A stretch of 22,771 nucleotides of DNA from a virus. A model generated the notes under the pieces. It saw nothing but the letters and a program-made list of their open reading frames with translations, was not told the origin of the DNA and made no database searches. Location: positions 1 to 22,771 of IMG/VR virus record IMGVR_UViG_3300006805_000175, one strand, 5' to 3'. A program made the translations under genes and the position numbers. Positions 13,425 through 20,128 of this stretch are shown in pieces (positions within the stretch are counted from its first letter, which is position 1; each line of letters starts with the position of its first letter).

Positions 13425-13910
13425 TTACTGCTTATTTAAATATTCTATAGCTTTACCCAATAATTGTACATCATCACGAAAATATCCAAGACCACGGTTA
13501 CAAGCATTACAAAGTATACCCCGAACTTTACCAGTAGTATGATCGTGGTCAACATGGAAATTGGTAGTTTTACCATTTTTAATCAACTCCTCACCACTAC
13601 TAGTAATATTTGTAAGACCGCATATTTTACATACACCACCCTGTGCTTCTAACATCTCATAATACTGGTCCACCGTAAGCCCATATAATTTTCTAAGTTC
13701 ATAAGCCCAACCTACCCTACGAAACTTCTCTGGGTTCCTATCACGCCAACCATCTAGATATTCTCTACAACACTGTTTGCAACGAGCCTGTTTACCATTC
13801 ACACCATTAGCGTTTCCGTTGTAACACTCCCATGGCTTAAATATTAAACATTTTGTGCATACCCTGCCTAATGCATCAATCTTTGTTTTGGTAGGTGTCT
13901 TATGAGCCAT
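13425..13910 (-). CDS. Endonuclease VII / HNH-family nuclease
   Basis: The product has 161 residues. The C-terminal domain fits the recombination endonuclease VII family: YGLTVDQYYEMLEAQGGVCKICG, then HVDHDHTTGKVRGILCNACNRGLG, with zinc cysteines C94/C97 and C134/C137 and the catalytic HVDHDH at 119-124. The N-terminal half has a second set of cysteines (C18/C21 and C44/C47) that could bind another zinc and contact DNA. The gene interrupts the portal-scaffold stretch, as free-standing homing-type HNH genes often do; a role in resolving DNA branches during packaging is an alternative. It lacks a Shine-Dalgarno. Its ATG follows a 13-bp perfect inverted repeat that contains promoter-like hexamers. 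A preference for TTA/ATA-type codons may hint at separate origin. Confidence 0.85.
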   Translation of the reverse strand: MAHKTPTKTKIDALGRVCTKCLIFKPWECYNGNANGVNGKQARCKQCCREYLDGWRDRNPEKFRRVGWAYELRKLYGLTVDQYYEMLEAQGGVCKICGLTNITSSGEELIKNGKTTNFHVDHDHTTGKVRGILCNACNRGLGYFRDDVQLLGKAIEYLNKQ

Positions 13911-13946: not shown

Positions 13947-16026
13947 CCATTCCAGCTGGGGCTTGTGCTGGTGTTGGTTGTGGTGGTACAGCACCACTGC
14001 CATCTTGTGGTTGATTCATCATTGCATCTATTCCTGGCAGTGGTTTACCATTATTATCTGTTGCAGGATACATTATATCTGCTCCTCTACCAGCCAAATC
14101 CATTAAGTCGATTTGAGCTTTAGCCTCATGGATAGGATCTGGCTGATAACCAGCTTTAACTTCCATCTGCATTTTTGTGAATTCGCTCGCATCCTTGTAA
14201 TTTATGACGGCAACATCTTTAATATCTTCCTTTGGAGGAGTAGGTGGAGCGAGTAGTTTATTAAATGCATCATCAGTGAGGCTTGGGTCAATCTTCTGGA
14301 GCATCCAGCGCTTGATTTCAACTGGGTTAAAGATTCCATGTGGGTCGTCAGAAAGGATTTCATATATTTGGTTATCTTTCTGACCAACTTCCATCTGCTT
14401 TTGCTTGATAGTAGTATCGAGCTGTGCATGGATTTCCCATTCGCCATCAGCTTCCCATGGGTCGAAGTCTTTGAAGAATACGCCATTTTTACCAACAATA
14501 CGCATAGCAGTCTTCTTAGTGACAAAAATCTGCACCAATTTGAATATGACGCTTGCGAGTTGAGCATATCCCTCATTTTCGAGGTTAGAAACTTTCGTTG
14601 AAAAGCGCATTTGAGCCTGTTGCATTTGTGTAGAGATTTCAGTAGCAGTTGTACGGCTATTCGCAATAGAACCACCCTGTACTGCCTCATCAGCAGCCGT
14701 AGAACGGCGCATACGCTGCATAATGCGCTCTTGCTTGTTGTCCAAGTCGCCAGAAAGCTGTGGTCGCTCTAGCGCACCCATTGCATTGTGAGGAATTGGA
14801 TAGACCGCACCAGGGATAGTTTCAATTTCAGCCGCCAAATCAGCAAACTGAGGGTCAATCCAGTACATCGGTGTATTTTGATAGGCATTATTATCAACCT
14901 GCATTGCCTCATAGTCATTGAGAAGCTCCGCATCATAGATAAGCAGTGCCATTTCACCCTCAGCATAGAACTGTGAGCTGTCGATATAGTCACGAAGCAC
15001 TGCAAACGGCAAAAATGGCTCAATTTCTTTGAGTTTTTGTTCAACTTCGATAGTTTCACCCTCTGGACCGTCAACTTCAGCTAGGCGAGTCATTTCATCA
15101 CGCTGACACCATGTTTTTTCGTTGTAGATGAACTCTTTGCGGTTGCCAATTTCGTAAATACGACCAGTAGGCAAGTGGTGGAGCTTAATAATGAATACCT
15201 GGTCTTTAGCGGCATCATCACCAAGAGTAGAACCAGCAAACATATCCTTGAACTCTTTGTCCATACCCTTGTTATCAGCGTCATCAGACTTGCCACCGTC
15301 TTTTGGTCCAATCTTTTCAAGATTGTTGTAGCGGTCAACCCACTTTTTCTCTTCAGCATTGTAGATTTTTTGGCGTTTTAGGTATTCTTTGTTCTGCAAA
15401 TAGACATAACCAGCATATTCAGCTGGGTTAAGCGTATTTACTAAGCCAGTCGAGGTTGGGTCAACAAAGAAATCACGAACTGGAATGTTGAAGATAAATG
15501 GTTTTCCATTGCGCCACTCTGCACCAAGAACAGCTGTGCCGTAAAGCAACATTTCACGCACCCACTCTTGGTTCTTCAAGCCCATTTGGTTATCAACCAT
15601 GAAATAGTCAAGCATTTCATTCATAACTTCTGTGTCATGAACCTGCTCTTCATTGGTTGGCAAGAAATGGAATCGAGGATTGCCAGAAGCGATATTGCTC
15701 ACCAAAGTTTCAATAATTGTATGTGCTTCACGAATAACAGGGTCAGAAACACCCTCATAATTGCGGATAACTCGTTGACCCTTGTAGACACGGAAATAAT
15801 TGTCCCAATTTGAGCGATGACCACTATCAACATACTTTTTAGCATCATCATACAGCTTCAACGCCTCTTTGAGCGTCAGCTGTCCTGTTTCCTCAGCCTC
15901 GTCTGTGAACTTTTCGTGCTGCTCGTCTTCGGGCGATGACTTCGCTGTGTCGGGTGTTGCGAGTTTTGCCGATGGTAATGTCGGAGAAGTCGGAGGGGTT
16001 ATTGCTGCTTGTGCTTCTGGTGGCAT
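13939..16026 (-). CDS. Portal protein (P22-like)
   Basis: The product has 695 residues, in the range of P22-type portals (about 700). The first 50 residues are disordered and Pro/Ser/Thr/Glu-rich. The body begins with a helix (LKEALKLYDDAKKYVDSGHRSNWDNYFRVYKGQR), then VSDPVIREAHTIIETLVSNIASGNPRFHFLPTN and EWVREMLLYGTAVLGAEWRNGKPFIFNIPVRDFFVDP, a hallmark portal arrangement. Later come a helix region with IANSRTTATEISTQMQQAQMRFSTKVSNLE, probably the long stem or barrel part, and a Pro/Gln-rich tail. The start at 16026 has AAGAGAAATACAA before the ATG, the same cassette as other virion genes, so I keep it although it makes the gene overlap the large terminase by 134 bp. Confidence 0.88.
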   Translation of the reverse strand: MPPEAQAAITPPTSPTLPSAKLATPDTAKSSPEDEQHEKFTDEAEETGQLTLKEALKLYDDAKKYVDSGHRSNWDNYFRVYKGQRVIRNYEGVSDPVIREAHTIIETLVSNIASGNPRFHFLPTNEEQVHDTEVMNEMLDYFMVDNQMGLKNQEWVREMLLYGTAVLGAEWRNGKPFIFNIPVRDFFVDPTSTGLVNTLNPAEYAGYVYLQNKEYLKRQKIYNAEEKKWVDRYNNLEKIGPKDGGKSDDADNKGMDKEFKDMFAGSTLGDDAAKDQVFIIKLHHLPTGRIYEIGNRKEFIYNEKTWCQRDEMTRLAEVDGPEGETIEVEQKLKEIEPFLPFAVLRDYIDSSQFYAEGEMALLIYDAELLNDYEAMQVDNNAYQNTPMYWIDPQFADLAAEIETIPGAVYPIPHNAMGALERPQLSGDLDNKQERIMQRMRRSTAADEAVQGGSIANSRTTATEISTQMQQAQMRFSTKVSNLENEGYAQLASVIFKLVQIFVTKKTAMRIVGKNGVFFKDFDPWEADGEWEIHAQLDTTIKQKQMEVGQKDNQIYEILSDDPHGIFNPVEIKRWMLQKIDPSLTDDAFNKLLAPPTPPKEDIKDVAVINYKDASEFTKMQMEVKAGYQPDPIHEAKAQIDLMDLAGRGADIMYPATDNNGKPLPGIDAMMNQPQDGSGAVPPQPTPAQAPAGMVA

Positions 16027-17830
16027 TTGTATTTCTCTTTACTGGCTTATGAATATTTTCTTTAGCGTATTCAGTATTCAGAGAGTTGTAATCTGTTAGA
16101 TACAGAGCAATCGCTTTCGCCATCACTGTGTCATCGAACATACCCTCTTGTGCGTTTGTAAAACCTTGGTCATCGACCACATAGGTCATACATTCACGGA
16201 TGAATACTACATCCAAGTCAATTATATCATTATCTCGTATGGCTGTCGCCAAGTTGTTTATGATTTTCGGTTTTGTTTTACGATTTGTCTGCCAACCCAT
16301 GAGTGAAGTGCGCTCTTGGAACTGGTGTTCTTCAGAGTTTTTACGCATAAATAAGTTTCGATAGAATTTATTTCGCAGACTTTGGACTGTCGTAAGTCCA
16401 TGGTTATTTACTTCAACACCAACTAGCGCTGTGTTGTAGAAAGTGCCAATGGCATAGACAACCGCACCAAGTAAATCAGGCTCGATGTGACCACGCCATC
16501 TTGCTACAGTTTTCAGGTCAGATTGCCGTGTAACATCTATCACAGAGTAGTCATTTTCCTTTTTGGCGGACTCATTGTTCAATTTACCCTCTGAAACGTC
16601 CACACCAATGACATATTTCTCAGTTTTTTCAGGCAAATCCCATATTTTGAGTGGTGATGGGTCTTGGTCTTGAAATGTTCGAGCCACTTCATTGAATATA
16701 TACTTTTCAACAGCCGTTGGGTCTGGATTAGCGACAACCTGTCCAAACATAGGCGATGGTGCTTTTTGAGCAATTTGCTCCATGCGTACCAGCTTATCAA
16801 TCTCAAATCGTGGGCGACCTGATGATAGAAACGCTTCCATGTCGTCTTTCGGATATTCCTGATAAAACTTCTTTGGCTCAGAGCGAAACTCCTTACGCTT
16901 TTCCCTACGCCACAGTATTTTACGGTCCCAGCTAGCTTTATCGTAGTTTTTTTCCTCAAAAATACGGAGTAAATCGAGTTCTTCGTCATCATAGATACCG
17001 TTGCAAGTACCCTCTATTTCGTACTCATTATGCTCATGCCAAGCGAAGAATAATGGTCGAAATGCAGATTCACCCTTTTTAGCAAACTGCCACTCATCAT
17101 AAAAGAATCCACCGACACCGTTAGCGGTACTCTCCAAGAAAGCAAAGGTAAATGGAGCAAGCGGAACAGCCTGAATTGCTGATGAAACAACGTCAGCTTT
17201 AGCCTCCCAGAACGCTACCTCAGAACCGTGGAAAAAGTGAATAGTGGCAGAGCGCCCTTTGCCCTCTTTTGCTACCAATGTCTTGATTTCACTACCAAGA
17301 CCAGGAGAACGCTTACCTTGCGCCTTATATTCCTCCTTGATTTGGTCATCAACATCAAAAACCAGCCCTTTGACGTTATTGTATTTTCGCCGTGGCTGGA
17401 ATGTTGGATGGCAATTATCAAAGTAGCGCTTAAACATCTGATAAAGGTTAGCTGAGGCATCGGTTTCGTGAGCGATAATCACTGTTTTTATATTGCGGTG
17501 GGTCGTTGTCCACCAAAAAGCAAGTGCCTCAATGACCGTTGAAAGCCCCATCTGCCGTGCTTTCAGAATTATATAGCGAACAGGGCGACCATTGGCAATA
17601 TCATTCATCACCTCTTCAACAAGCAGTTTTTGCGCCCAGTTGAGGACAAACGGCACAATTTCTCCAGAGATTTTGTCCTGAATCATCAGGTTGCGCTCAC
17701 AGTAGATGTAGAAATCTTCGGCAATAACCTTAATAGCAGCTTTCAACTGCTCTTCTTGGCTCAAATTGTGGTAGTCGGGTATTCGGCTTCTTACCAAAGC
17801 TCTTGTTTCTTCTCGGAGTTCTTGCGCCAT
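15893..17830 (-). CDS. terL: Terminase large subunit
   Basis: The product has 645 residues and acts as the packaging motor ATPase plus nuclease. The ATPase domain has a deviant Walker A, ARQMGLST (91-98), a coupling or adenine region around IIAHETDASANLYQMFKRYFD, and a Walker B ending FAFLESTANG (acidic E233). The C-terminal RNase H-like nuclease begins VIGVDVSEG (407-415, catalytic D411), continues DYSVIDV (D427), and ends with FDDTVMAKAIAL. The gene overlaps the small upstream gene by 40 bp at the start and the portal gene by 134 bp at the end; AAGGCA stands near the ATG. The last 45 residues, encoded in the portal overlap, are basic and Ser/Thr/Asn-rich and probably disordered. Confidence 0.93.
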   Translation of the reverse strand: MAQELREETRALVRSRIPDYHNLSQEEQLKAAIKVIAEDFYIYCERNLMIQDKISGEIVPFVLNWAQKLLVEEVMNDIANGRPVRYIILKARQMGLSTVIEALAFWWTTTHRNIKTVIIAHETDASANLYQMFKRYFDNCHPTFQPRRKYNNVKGLVFDVDDQIKEEYKAQGKRSPGLGSEIKTLVAKEGKGRSATIHFFHGSEVAFWEAKADVVSSAIQAVPLAPFTFAFLESTANGVGGFFYDEWQFAKKGESAFRPLFFAWHEHNEYEIEGTCNGIYDDEELDLLRIFEEKNYDKASWDRKILWRREKRKEFRSEPKKFYQEYPKDDMEAFLSSGRPRFEIDKLVRMEQIAQKAPSPMFGQVVANPDPTAVEKYIFNEVARTFQDQDPSPLKIWDLPEKTEKYVIGVDVSEGKLNNESAKKENDYSVIDVTRQSDLKTVARWRGHIEPDLLGAVVYAIGTFYNTALVGVEVNNHGLTTVQSLRNKFYRNLFMRKNSEEHQFQERTSLMGWQTNRKTKPKIINNLATAIRDNDIIDLDVVFIRECMTYVVDDQGFTNAQEGMFDDTVMAKAIALYLTDYNSLNTEYAKENIHKPVKRNTNATRSTSSNNPSDFSDITIGKTRNTRHSEVIARRRAARKVHRRG

Positions 17831-18095: not shown

Positions 18096-19070
18096 TTAAA
18101 ACGCTGGAGTATCAGATACTTCCTCTTGTGGGACTGGTTCTGGGTAAAATAGCTTGATTTTTGTCTTGCGGTGAGGCTGGGAAACCTTACTTTTTGCCAC
18201 TGTAACCTCTATTTCATGCCCTAAATACAGCCCATTTTTAGCATCTTTGGGAAATCGCCACGATGGAATCGTTTTGAGCGCCAAAATAAGTGAGGCAGCG
18301 TATGGAACACCCATTCCGCCTGGTGTGTACTTCATCGGCACATAACTCCCAATCACTTCACGCTCCTGGTTGATTATGACAAGTGCAGTGTCAGTATTTT
18401 TCAAAATCATTGGCACAACACGCATTAGCTTGTTCACAACCAAAGCCTTTTGACCGATGTTTCGGTCAGTGCTTTTGCCGTCCTGCTCGGTGCGGAACGT
18501 CATGCTCGCCAAAGAATCAACAACAATCATGTCATATTTGCCCGACTGAGCGGCTTTCAGCACCACCTCATAGACATCTTCGATAAAGGCAGAATCATTG
18601 TACAAAGTGAAATTATCAGCATCTACTTCCAAATCAGCCAGCAATTCTGGGTTCAGACTTGCTTCGCTATCGACATAAAATACTTTTACATTATGCAAAC
18701 CAGCTAGCATATTAAGCGCAAGCGTTGTTTTACCGACTGCATACGGTCCCTGAATTTGTGTTACACGACCACGAGGTATTTTCTGAAACACATCTAGCTC
18801 TTTTATACCAGTAGTAAGCCACTCAACTTCAGCTAGCCCCATCTTCTTGAACGCAGCCAAGTTTTTCTCACGGTCGTAAGGCTTTTTTTCAGATACTTCA
18901 CGCTTTGGAGCATCCTTAGTTATTTTAGCGACCTTCTCATCAATAATCTCCCCAGTTTTTTCATCAATATTATTTTTACGAGCATACTGTAATCTACATT
19001 TTGGTGAACAGAATTTTGCTGTTGCTCTTTTTGGCTGAAACTCAACCCCATCGTTCAAACATTTTGCCAT
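18096..19070 (-). CDS. RecA-like ATPase with N-terminal zinc-finger-like motif
   Basis: The product has 324 residues. Residues 1-30 hold C4, D7, C21 and C25 in a CLND...FCSPKC arrangement, like small phage zinc fingers, but the second cysteine is replaced by Asp. Residues 30-75 are a charged linker. The RecA core has Walker A GPYAVGKT (108-115), DSEAS with E136 at the position of the catalytic glutamate, Walker B YDMIVVDS (179-186), IINQ, and a GGMGVPYAASLILAL stretch comparable to RecA's L2/DNA-contact region. It likely handles single-stranded DNA during recombination or replication. A short leader with AAGGAG precedes the ATG and the gene is read with the packaging genes. It is shorter than bacterial RecA (about 350) and lacks an evident C-terminal RecA domain; RadA-like or annealing roles are alternatives. 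Confidence 0.83.
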   Translation of the reverse strand: MAKCLNDGVEFQPKRATAKFCSPKCRLQYARKNNIDEKTGEIIDEKVAKITKDAPKREVSEKKPYDREKNLAAFKKMGLAEVEWLTTGIKELDVFQKIPRGRVTQIQGPYAVGKTTLALNMLAGLHNVKVFYVDSEASLNPELLADLEVDADNFTLYNDSAFIEDVYEVVLKAAQSGKYDMIVVDSLASMTFRTEQDGKSTDRNIGQKALVVNKLMRVVPMILKNTDTALVIINQEREVIGSYVPMKYTPGGMGVPYAASLILALKTIPSWRFPKDAKNGLYLGHEIEVTVAKSKVSQPHRKTKIKLFYPEPVPQEEVSDTPAF

Positions 19071-19096
19071 TTTTTGATGCTCCTTAGCGTTTCATA

Positions 19097-19102
19097 ATTA
19101 TA
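19097..19102 (-). promoter_or_regulatory. Leftward -10 element before the RecA-like gene
   Basis: TATAAT on the minus strand at 19102-19097 lies 26 nt before the ATG at 19070, predicting a leader of about 20 nt that includes AAGGAG. No good -35 is present; the expected position is occupied by ACGCTAA repeats, so a repeat-binding protein might activate or block this promoter. Confidence 0.45.
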
Positions 19103-19145
19103 CTCTTAGCGTATCATTTTAGCGTTTCAAATTCAATAGCGTTTC

Positions 19146-19597
19146 GTAGTAGGGGTACACGTTTTTTATTTCAGTCAGTATTGGGAAATCTTATTGCACG
19201 TTCAGCGGCTTACAGCGGAGGCAATACTAGCGCTCATACCCCTAAAGCCTATTATAAGCGACTGCGACTCATCCGAGGAGCAGGAGCGCACCAAAGGAAG
19301 AAAGATTGAATACAGAGCCTGTAGTAAGGTCACAGAGGGTAAAAAATACTGGGTAGAAAAAATATGGGAGGAGAAATTTTTAGTGGGTCGCAGTCGTAGC
19401 GAGATAGGGATAGTACCGTAATAATACTCACTCATAGCCTGCGACACACCACCCTTTGGGGACTACCCCCCACCCCTACCCCCCTATAACTACCTCATTA
19501 TATCATTATAAAATCTTTTTATTATTTATCAAGTAATAATGATGATGTATGTATACATGGTATGGGTACATGGCCCACCAAGAGAAGAGGGTGCCTG
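19146..19597. other. Non-coding core with inverted repeats, C-tract and AT-rich segment
   Basis: No convincing gene is seen in the non-coding interval 19071-19768. The core between the two repeat clusters holds an 8-bp inverted pair TAGGGGTA/TACCCCTA (19150-19157 and 19237-19244), with a nested ATTGC/GCAAT. Next is a 10-bp perfect pair CGACTGCGAC/GTCGCAGTCG (19259-19268 and 19387-19396) enclosing purine-rich sequence. Three C tracts follow (19466-19471, 19473-19476, 19479-19484), so the minus strand could form a G-quadruplex. Then comes an AT-rich block (about 19496-19545) with ATTATT/AATAAT and the palindrome ATGTATACAT (19549-19558). Such a mix suits an origin, a packaging site or a structured RNA; none can be chosen from sequence alone. 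Confidence 0.6.
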
Positions 19598-19768
19598 ATA
19601 CGCTACGCTATATGTAGTGTGTACTGTTACGCTAATTATCTTGTTACGCTAACAACAGAGGTGGATAGTGTCGCACAATATACATTTTCAGACATTACCG
19701 TTTCATATTGTTACGCTAACATATAGCATTTGATACGCTAACGGCCGCCACAGAGGCTCACAAGCGGT

Positions 19769-20128
19769 TTAATCAAGCACCGCCTCTATATTGATGTTCA
19801 AGTGCTTTCCCTCTTGTCGTTGTACCGCTTTACCCCTAATGTGGTCAATTACAAAATGTGCGTTTTTGGTTGCTACTCTTTCATCAACACTATTCACCAT
19901 CTTCCCCACCCTCTGCACTGCATCAACTCCAATCTGTTGTAGGCTATTTTCAATGTAATCTAAAGCATTCTCATTTTCTGCTTTTTTCTTAATTCTCCAT
20001 GCTCTATCCCCAGGTTTCAATATCGTGGGATTTATGGCCCTTTGTGCAGCGCTACCATTACCCAGAGTTGCCTCTAGTGCTTTGTGTTCGGCTATTTCTT
20101 TTGGTGTGATTTTTCTATATGCTCTCAT
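19769..20128 (-). CDS. Small DNA-binding-type protein, candidate terminase small subunit
   Basis: The product has 119 residues and is helical and basic. The N-terminus (MRAYRKITPKEIAEHKALEATLGNGSAAQRAINPTILKPGDRAWRIKKKAE) could fold as a helix-turn-helix region. The C-terminal half, ENALDYIENSLQQIGVDAVQRVGKMVNSVDERVATKNAHFVIDHIRGKAVQRQEG, resembles the end of many small terminases and related helix-turn-helix proteins, where an A-x-x-I-x-D-x-x-x-GKP/A-x-Q motif is followed by a beta ending (LNINIEAVL). It is the first gene of the leftward block. The 698 bp after it hold repeats that a small terminase could recognise. No Shine-Dalgarno precedes the ATG; a TAAAAT lies 6 nt upstream. A repressor is the main alternative. 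Confidence 0.62.
   Translation of the reverse strand: MRAYRKITPKEIAEHKALEATLGNGSAAQRAINPTILKPGDRAWRIKKKAENENALDYIENSLQQIGVDAVQRVGKMVNSVDERVATKNAHFVIDHIRGKAVQRQEGKHLNINIEAVLD

Follow-up and report, generated by a model that had tools for sequence, protein, structure and literature searches.

What is the function of the non-coding DNA that separates the small-terminase-like gene of this virus from its RecA-like gene? The window, i.e. the whole stretch of DNA that was analysed, is a viral contig of 22,771 bases. Its minus-strand genes follow the order terS-like gene (119 aa), the locus under study, RecA/UvsX-like gene, the gene of a 100-aa protein, terL and portal gene, and the early genes run in the opposite direction from about 20.8 kb of the window. 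Previously, a sequence-only reading had described at this locus ten ACGCTA cores in two clusters that point away from each other, and had proposed a packaging site, a replication origin or an operator array controlling the RecA-like promoter.

Organization of the locus in a podovirus family

The elements of the locus and the neighbouring genes are listed below, with their positions in the window.

15893-17830, minus strand: terminase large subunit (phrog_2, 3.4e-19; phrog_24361, 7.6e-23)
18096-19070, minus strand: RecA/UvsX-like recombinase with an N-terminal cysteine cluster (PF00154, 5e-33; phrog_97, 8.7e-41)
19085-19090, minus strand: left array copy, partly over the ribosome-binding sequence AAGGAG (from the sequence)
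19097-19102, minus strand: TATAAT, presumed -10 of the recA-terL operon (from the sequence)
19107-19112, minus strand: left array copy in the -35/-10 spacer (from the sequence)
19120-19125, minus strand: left array copy at the -35 position (from the sequence)
19137-19142, minus strand: left array copy CGAAACGCTATT (motif count and simulation)
19341-19389, minus strand: series of T-tracts (A-tracts on the plus strand) spaced about 17-18 nt, by eye; similar series in relatives
19466-19485, minus strand: G-tract (C-tract on the plus strand), GGGGGGTAGGGGTGGGGGG, reading 5' to 3' away from the dif-like site
19487-19545, no strand: AT-rich stretch, also in the relatives L023, L025 and L051
19600-19622, no strand: two overlapping ACGCTA cores in an imperfect palindrome, ACGCTATATGTAGTGT; similar palindromes there in relatives, by eye
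19629-19634, plus strand: right array copy 4, CTGTTACGCTAAT (motif count and simulation)
19646-19651, plus strand: right array copy 3, TTGTTACGCTAAC (motif count and simulation)
19668-19695, plus strand: dif-like Xer recombination site, GTGTCGCACAA-TATACA-TTTTCAGACAT (11-6-11), a 28-bp motif found in the window and in 15/15 relatives
19713-19718, plus strand: right array copy 2, TTGTTACGCTAAC (motif count and simulation)
19735-19740, plus strand: right array copy 1, TTTGATACGCTAAC (motif count and simulation)
19769-20128, minus strand: TerS-like protein of 119 aa, first gene of the leftward late block; 15 relatives have a homologue at this position

Searches with RecA, TerL and TerS led to a podovirus family that includes the circular genome MW202692.1, and the oriented relatives keep the order terS, locus, downstream genes. 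In this family, the stretch from the TerS-like gene to the recA-terL operon is a conserved control region made of several parts, and it adjoins the terminase genes, lying beside terS and upstream of terL. The TerS-like protein gave no Pfam or PHROG match. Its structural model, for which the alignment was built without the MW202692 row, is all-helical, with five helices and moderate confidence (pLDDT 69), and its best PDB neighbours, the small terminases of NV1 and PaP3, are insignificant (E 1.2). Elsewhere in the window, a small gene at 13425-13910, flanked by the portal gene and the structural gene that follows, has by eye the look of an HNH/endonuclease VII-type nuclease and is possibly a homing insertion. 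The terL gene is split by an insert of ~1 kb in L025, L039, L024, L028, L029 and L030 (tblastn finds it in two segments), which points to an intron or intein, and the TerL of L261 also has intein-like stretches.

The window contains 18 exact copies of ACGCTA, where 7.3 would be expected. Ten of these copies lie at the locus, four on the minus strand (19085, 19107, 19120 and 19137) and six on the plus strand (19600, 19605, 19629, 19646, 19713 and 19735), which bears out the positions and orientations described in the sequence-only reading; in first-order Markov simulations (n=2000), the count never exceeded 5 copies per 660 bp, and ten were reached in 0/2000. Eight copies have in common a longer, ACGCTAA-type core with flanking TGNT/TGAA, and the overlapping pair at 19600/19605 is without part of this outer consensus. 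The best copies of the window read TTGTTACGCTAAC, and the left copies read TGAAACGCTAA or TGATACGCTAA. Their spacing is irregular, with steps of 22, 13 and 17 on the left and of 5, 24, 17, 67 and 22 on the right. A CRISPR or TIGR guide array was ruled out by this spacing and by zero Rfam matches, and a structured RNA at the locus was likewise rejected with zero Rfam matches. The left copies overlap promoter elements, and the one at 19120-19125 lies exactly 17 bp upstream of TATAAT, so that the -35 of the RecA-like promoter is indeed occupied, as had been claimed.

The opposed design, with reverse copies after terS and forward copies before the next gene, is also found in MW202692, L020 and L025/L039; in other relatives the copies are fewer, of mixed orientation or altered in sequence. 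The motif drifts within the family (TGTTACGCTAA, TGTCACGCTAA, TGTCACACTTA, TGTTACATTTAA), with the variants TGTCCCGCTAA in L023, TGTCACACTTA in L013, TGTTACATTTAA in L010, TGTCCGYCTAA in L141 and TGTCACGCTAA in L298, and the last copies regularly adjoin the start of the next gene, regardless of which gene it is. Thus, the repeats persist among the relatives compared, often with a changed sequence, and the loss of repeats next to retained genes, which the sequence-only reading had named as evidence against its proposals, was not what we observed. TerS identity does not closely track the repeat motif: the TerS of L141 is 56% identical to that of the window and its repeat is TTTGTCCGYCTAA, whereas that of L020 is 48% identical and its repeat is unchanged.

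The inverted repeats, the C-tract and the AT-rich segment reported between the clusters are all present. A 13-bp inverted repeat lies at 19259-19271/19384-19396; it holds GTCGCAGTCG, has GTCGCA in common with the dif-like arms and flanks the part of the locus that contains the T-tracts. Elements common to the relatives, by eye, are a palindrome around CGCTATATGTAGCG, the AT-rich stretch, a G-rich block often ending in GGGTGGGCCCGA, a GTTAC-GTACC element and the T-tract series, the G-rich block being present in most of them.

A dif-like site and its counterpart in probable host chromosomes

Inside the right repeat cluster lies the dif-like site, which had been overlooked in the sequence-only reading. 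The geometry of dif, with two 11-bp arms and a 6-bp centre (PMC5357621), is found here together with partial dyad symmetry. The family consensus is ACGTCGCAAAA-TGTATA-TTGTGCGACAT, located between terS and the G-tract in a single copy per genome. Over the window and its 15 relatives, the motif has 10 invariant positions and scores 30-41 bits, against at most 13 for the next place in each sequence. In the window copy, one arm is degenerate (TTTTCAGAC), and the L051 copy is identical to E. coli dif over 15 consecutive bases (CGCATAATGTATATT). The site is single-copy in 18/18 other phage records, and the search for a tyrosine recombinase returned zero in eight phage records, all of them relatives, the window itself being a fragment. 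Genome ends at the dif-like site were considered and rejected: L231, L250, L270 and L278 end 44-364 bp away from it, but at non-homologous places. A further element, ACCCCTGTTA, recurs around the dif-like site in L214 (four copies), in L283 and in the family members L014, L017, L018, L053 and L298, phages whose portal proteins are unrelated.

One relative, L053, belongs to a Candidatus Saccharibacteria MAG. A pattern made of the arms only, with one mismatch allowed, matched 85/192 genomes of the phylum of this MAG (0 for the reversed-pattern control), almost always at one place per genome; the pattern was absent from 107/192, which may be incomplete MAGs or have a diverged dif. In the phylum to which the Runella MAG belongs, a related pattern matched 3/99 genomes. 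The site in hosts occupies an intergenic position, often with convergent genes on its two sides and ftsQ next to it (genes named by eye). In a host chromosome of 909,550 bases it is found at 119,078, and the TA skew flips from the 90-110 kb block to the 110-128 kb block; this location at a switch of strand composition, seen in one chromosome, suggests that it is probably the host dif. The phage site therefore matches a chromosomal site of the presumed hosts that is single-copy and, in this one chromosome, near the terminus. From these sequence comparisons, the chromosomal site is probably dif and the phage site its mimic, and the hosts are probably Patescibacteria, bacteria of ultra-small size, of the Saccharibacteria type. 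Host genomes carry 1-3 tyrosine recombinases each. A literature search gave no report of dif in genomes of the candidate phyla radiation, and the present analysis supplies a probable dif sequence for Saccharibacteria-type hosts.

Two dif copies as a sign of a prophage were also looked for, and both candidates were discarded, G119 being an overlapping contig pair and the second match of G161 lying inside a coding gene. L051 (Dependentiae MAG) and L052 (Runella MAG) were rejected as host-linked, since their MAGs have no good chromosomal dif-like match; these phage contigs are thus probably mis-binned. In the G085 chromosome (417 kb sampled), GAAGAAG shows a leading-strand bias of 114:28 and is a candidate chromosome-orienting motif.

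The same site upstream of terL in unrelated phages

Viral contigs were scanned for the exact arms, which gave 98 stretches, and 80 loci were analysed for position. The site lies upstream of its neighbour from the TerL cluster in 44/44 loci, 46-2634 bp away and never inside or downstream, a count that speaks to side and not to distance given the search window of 3 kb, and that refers to a cluster joined by BLAST linkage rather than by checking each member with a family model. These 44 TerLs form 26 groups at 40% identity. Moreover, terminases lead the PHROG families found within 2.5 kb of the site, with large as well as small subunits from several unrelated families, whereas zero terminases appear among the top 25 PHROG families of far ORFs (at least 4 kb) at the same loci; an integrase was found once among 146 near proteins. 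No earlier description of a dif site next to the terminase genes of a phage emerged from a literature search. The strongest new result of this analysis is the dif mimic with its strict position upstream of terL, and this placement in unrelated phages suggests that they use the host recombinase for their own DNA.

After dereplication, 27/72 phage loci have a G-tract (an 18-nt stretch with 13 or more G or C) no more than 400 bp from the site, versus 12/672 control windows, and the tracts are directed away from the site in 20 cases and toward it in 9. At host dif, no G-tract was present in twelve flanks. A KOPS-like role of the G-tract in orienting or loading FtsK was considered and is not supported, because GGGNAGGG is rare, occurring only 12 times in 417 kb of host chromosome (9:3), and because the host dif flanks are without G-tracts. 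Its place beside the terminase genes would instead be consistent with a role in packaging.

Repeats near the site are a less general feature. In unrelated phages, 9-mers with at least four copies near the dif-like site are modestly enriched (11/74 vs 11/504), and their motifs differ from one phage to another, which indicates that arrays are not a universal part of the dif-like module; the opposed arrays may be a family-specific addition. In L282 and L281, which have a distant TerL, 6-8 copies of GTAACACTT about 20 bp apart form a regular array upstream of the dif-like site.

Possible roles of the locus

We favour, with a probability of about one half, a packaging-linked control and recombination locus of a Patescibacteria podovirus, at which the host Xer system circularises or resolves the phage DNA and the repeats bind a phage protein. 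According to this model, a mimic of the host dif is placed next to the start of packaging, and the host Xer recombinase(s) would act on pairs of phage dif-like sites. The two members of a pair could be the copies at both ends of a terminally redundant incoming genome, leading to circularisation, or copies within a multimer, leading to its resolution. The G-tract, the AT-rich stretch and the T-tracts would form the presumed packaging core. A DNA-binding protein of the phage would occupy the opposed arrays: through the copies next to recA, which cover the late promoter and the ribosome-binding site, it would regulate the recA-terL operon, and the copies that surround the dif-like site would carry the other half of this nucleoprotein complex. 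Conservation of the site, its match to the host, its place upstream of terL and its company with G-tracts come from the sequence comparisons, and Xer action, the packaging start and the identity of the repeat-binding protein are inferred.

Several known systems offer partial parallels. The pac or cos regions of SPP1, P22 and lambda lie beside the terminase genes and contain repeats and possibly bent T-tract DNA. The locus resembles them in its position, its repeats and its T-tracts, and differs by its dif-like site and its G-tract, its own packaging role being a prediction. In P1, a single-copy recombination site, loxP, lies near pac and is suited to circularise redundant DNA and to resolve multimers. 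Both cases thus present a single site-specific recombination site next to the packaging region, and the link of the dif-like site with terL suits a function where packaging begins, like that of lox; however, P1 encodes its own recombinase, whereas the phage records here are without a tyrosine recombinase and their site copies the host dif. Cre-lox has been described as a multimer resolution system (PMC10999674). The cer and psi sites of multicopy plasmids also combine an Xer site with neighbouring accessory sequences for multimer resolution (PMC5357621), but the accessory repeats found here are of another motif and lie on both flanks. Finally, five relatives (G001, G002, G003, G005 and G012) have end overlaps of 99-127 nt at unrelated places, indicating circular assembly; this closure equally fits headful/permuted, redundant or intracellular circular DNA, and places no packaging ends.

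Alternatively, the dif-like site could be an attachment site through which the phage integrates at the chromosomal dif via the host Xer, in the manner of the IMEX CTXphi, VGJphi and Legionella LME-1, in which host Xer is likewise presumed to act on a dif mimic. A dif mimic without an integrase of its own is the IMEX signature (PMC5357621, PMC9765430), and the window centre, TATACA, agrees with the common host centres, TRTA, in its first four positions and differs in the last two, as in some IMEX attP sites (VGJphi, PMC5357621). However, we saw no sign of an integrated relative in host genomes, where the Pfam terminase scan has a low sensitivity, and close TerL matches in genomes were separate contigs; the host dif loci examined have housekeeping neighbours, and host genomes show one dif place each, not two. 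Moreover, TRTA is seen in 69/87 host centres and 38/97 phage centres, and 65/97 phage centres equal no sampled host centre, a comparison limited by the possibility that some phages have hosts that were not sampled and by a central-region rule borrowed from other Xer systems. Recombination between identical phage copies needs no host centre, so that variable phage centres fit exchange between phage copies better than exchange with the chromosome. An attP would also not require a strict place upstream of terL, and integration is in our view improbable. An iteron-type replication origin appears more improbable still. The repeats and the AT-rich stretch would suit it, and the cumulative GC skew, proposed as a check in the sequence-only reading, has its minimum near the locus in the window and in two circular relatives (MW202692 and G005). 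This minimum coincides with the switch in gene direction, however, and in G001-G003 the minima lie at least 2.8 kb away; the spacing lacks the regularity of iterons, the orientation is opposed and the adjacent genes are terS and recA, with no gene for a replication initiator. The interpretation of the sequence-only reading is thus supported in part: of its three proposed roles, the origin is the one that lost ground, and the operator and packaging options both keep some backing.

The most likely partner of the repeats is either a regulator made by the phage, acting at the late promoter, or else TerS. Overlap with the -35, the spacer and the ribosome-binding sequence favours a regulatory protein, and the position beside terS favours TerS. 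If the repeats were solely an operator array, at which a repressor or activator shuts down the recA-terL operon or sets its timing, with the dif-like site as an independent neighbour, the array ending at the next gene start in relatives, whichever gene this is, and the drift of the motif, as in operator/repressor pairs, would both be explained. On the other hand, the second array is 450 bp off, in the opposite direction and interleaved with the dif-like site, so looping would be needed, and we consider this account possible rather than probable. That the repeats are the TerS-binding sites of a pac or cos region seems doubtful. The location beside terS and upstream of terL, the occurrence of the dif-like site with a G-tract upstream of terL in unrelated phages, and the helical TerS model with small terminases as best, though insignificant, neighbours all point in this direction; packaging does not need overlap with a promoter and a ribosome-binding site, however, and TerS similarity fails to follow the repeat motif in L141 and L020.

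Extending the packaging-linked recombination model beyond this family, we propose, somewhat more tentatively, that Patescibacteria phages as a group keep a dif mimic upstream of terL with a strand-biased G-tract, and that, without any lysogenic integration, the host Xer system would circularise or resolve virion DNA at the site of packaging, the opposed repeats being a regulatory or synaptic part in one family. The module yields a testable prediction of how these phage genomes circularise, and the relatives, with a drifting motif in a fixed architecture, form a ready-made series in which to look for the DNA-binding protein that recognises it. With the dif-like arms as a marker, phages that infect these hosts could be recognised from DNA alone. 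The host dif, the terminase genes and a repeat-bound control region would thus be joined as one module across very different phages of a poorly cultured phylum.
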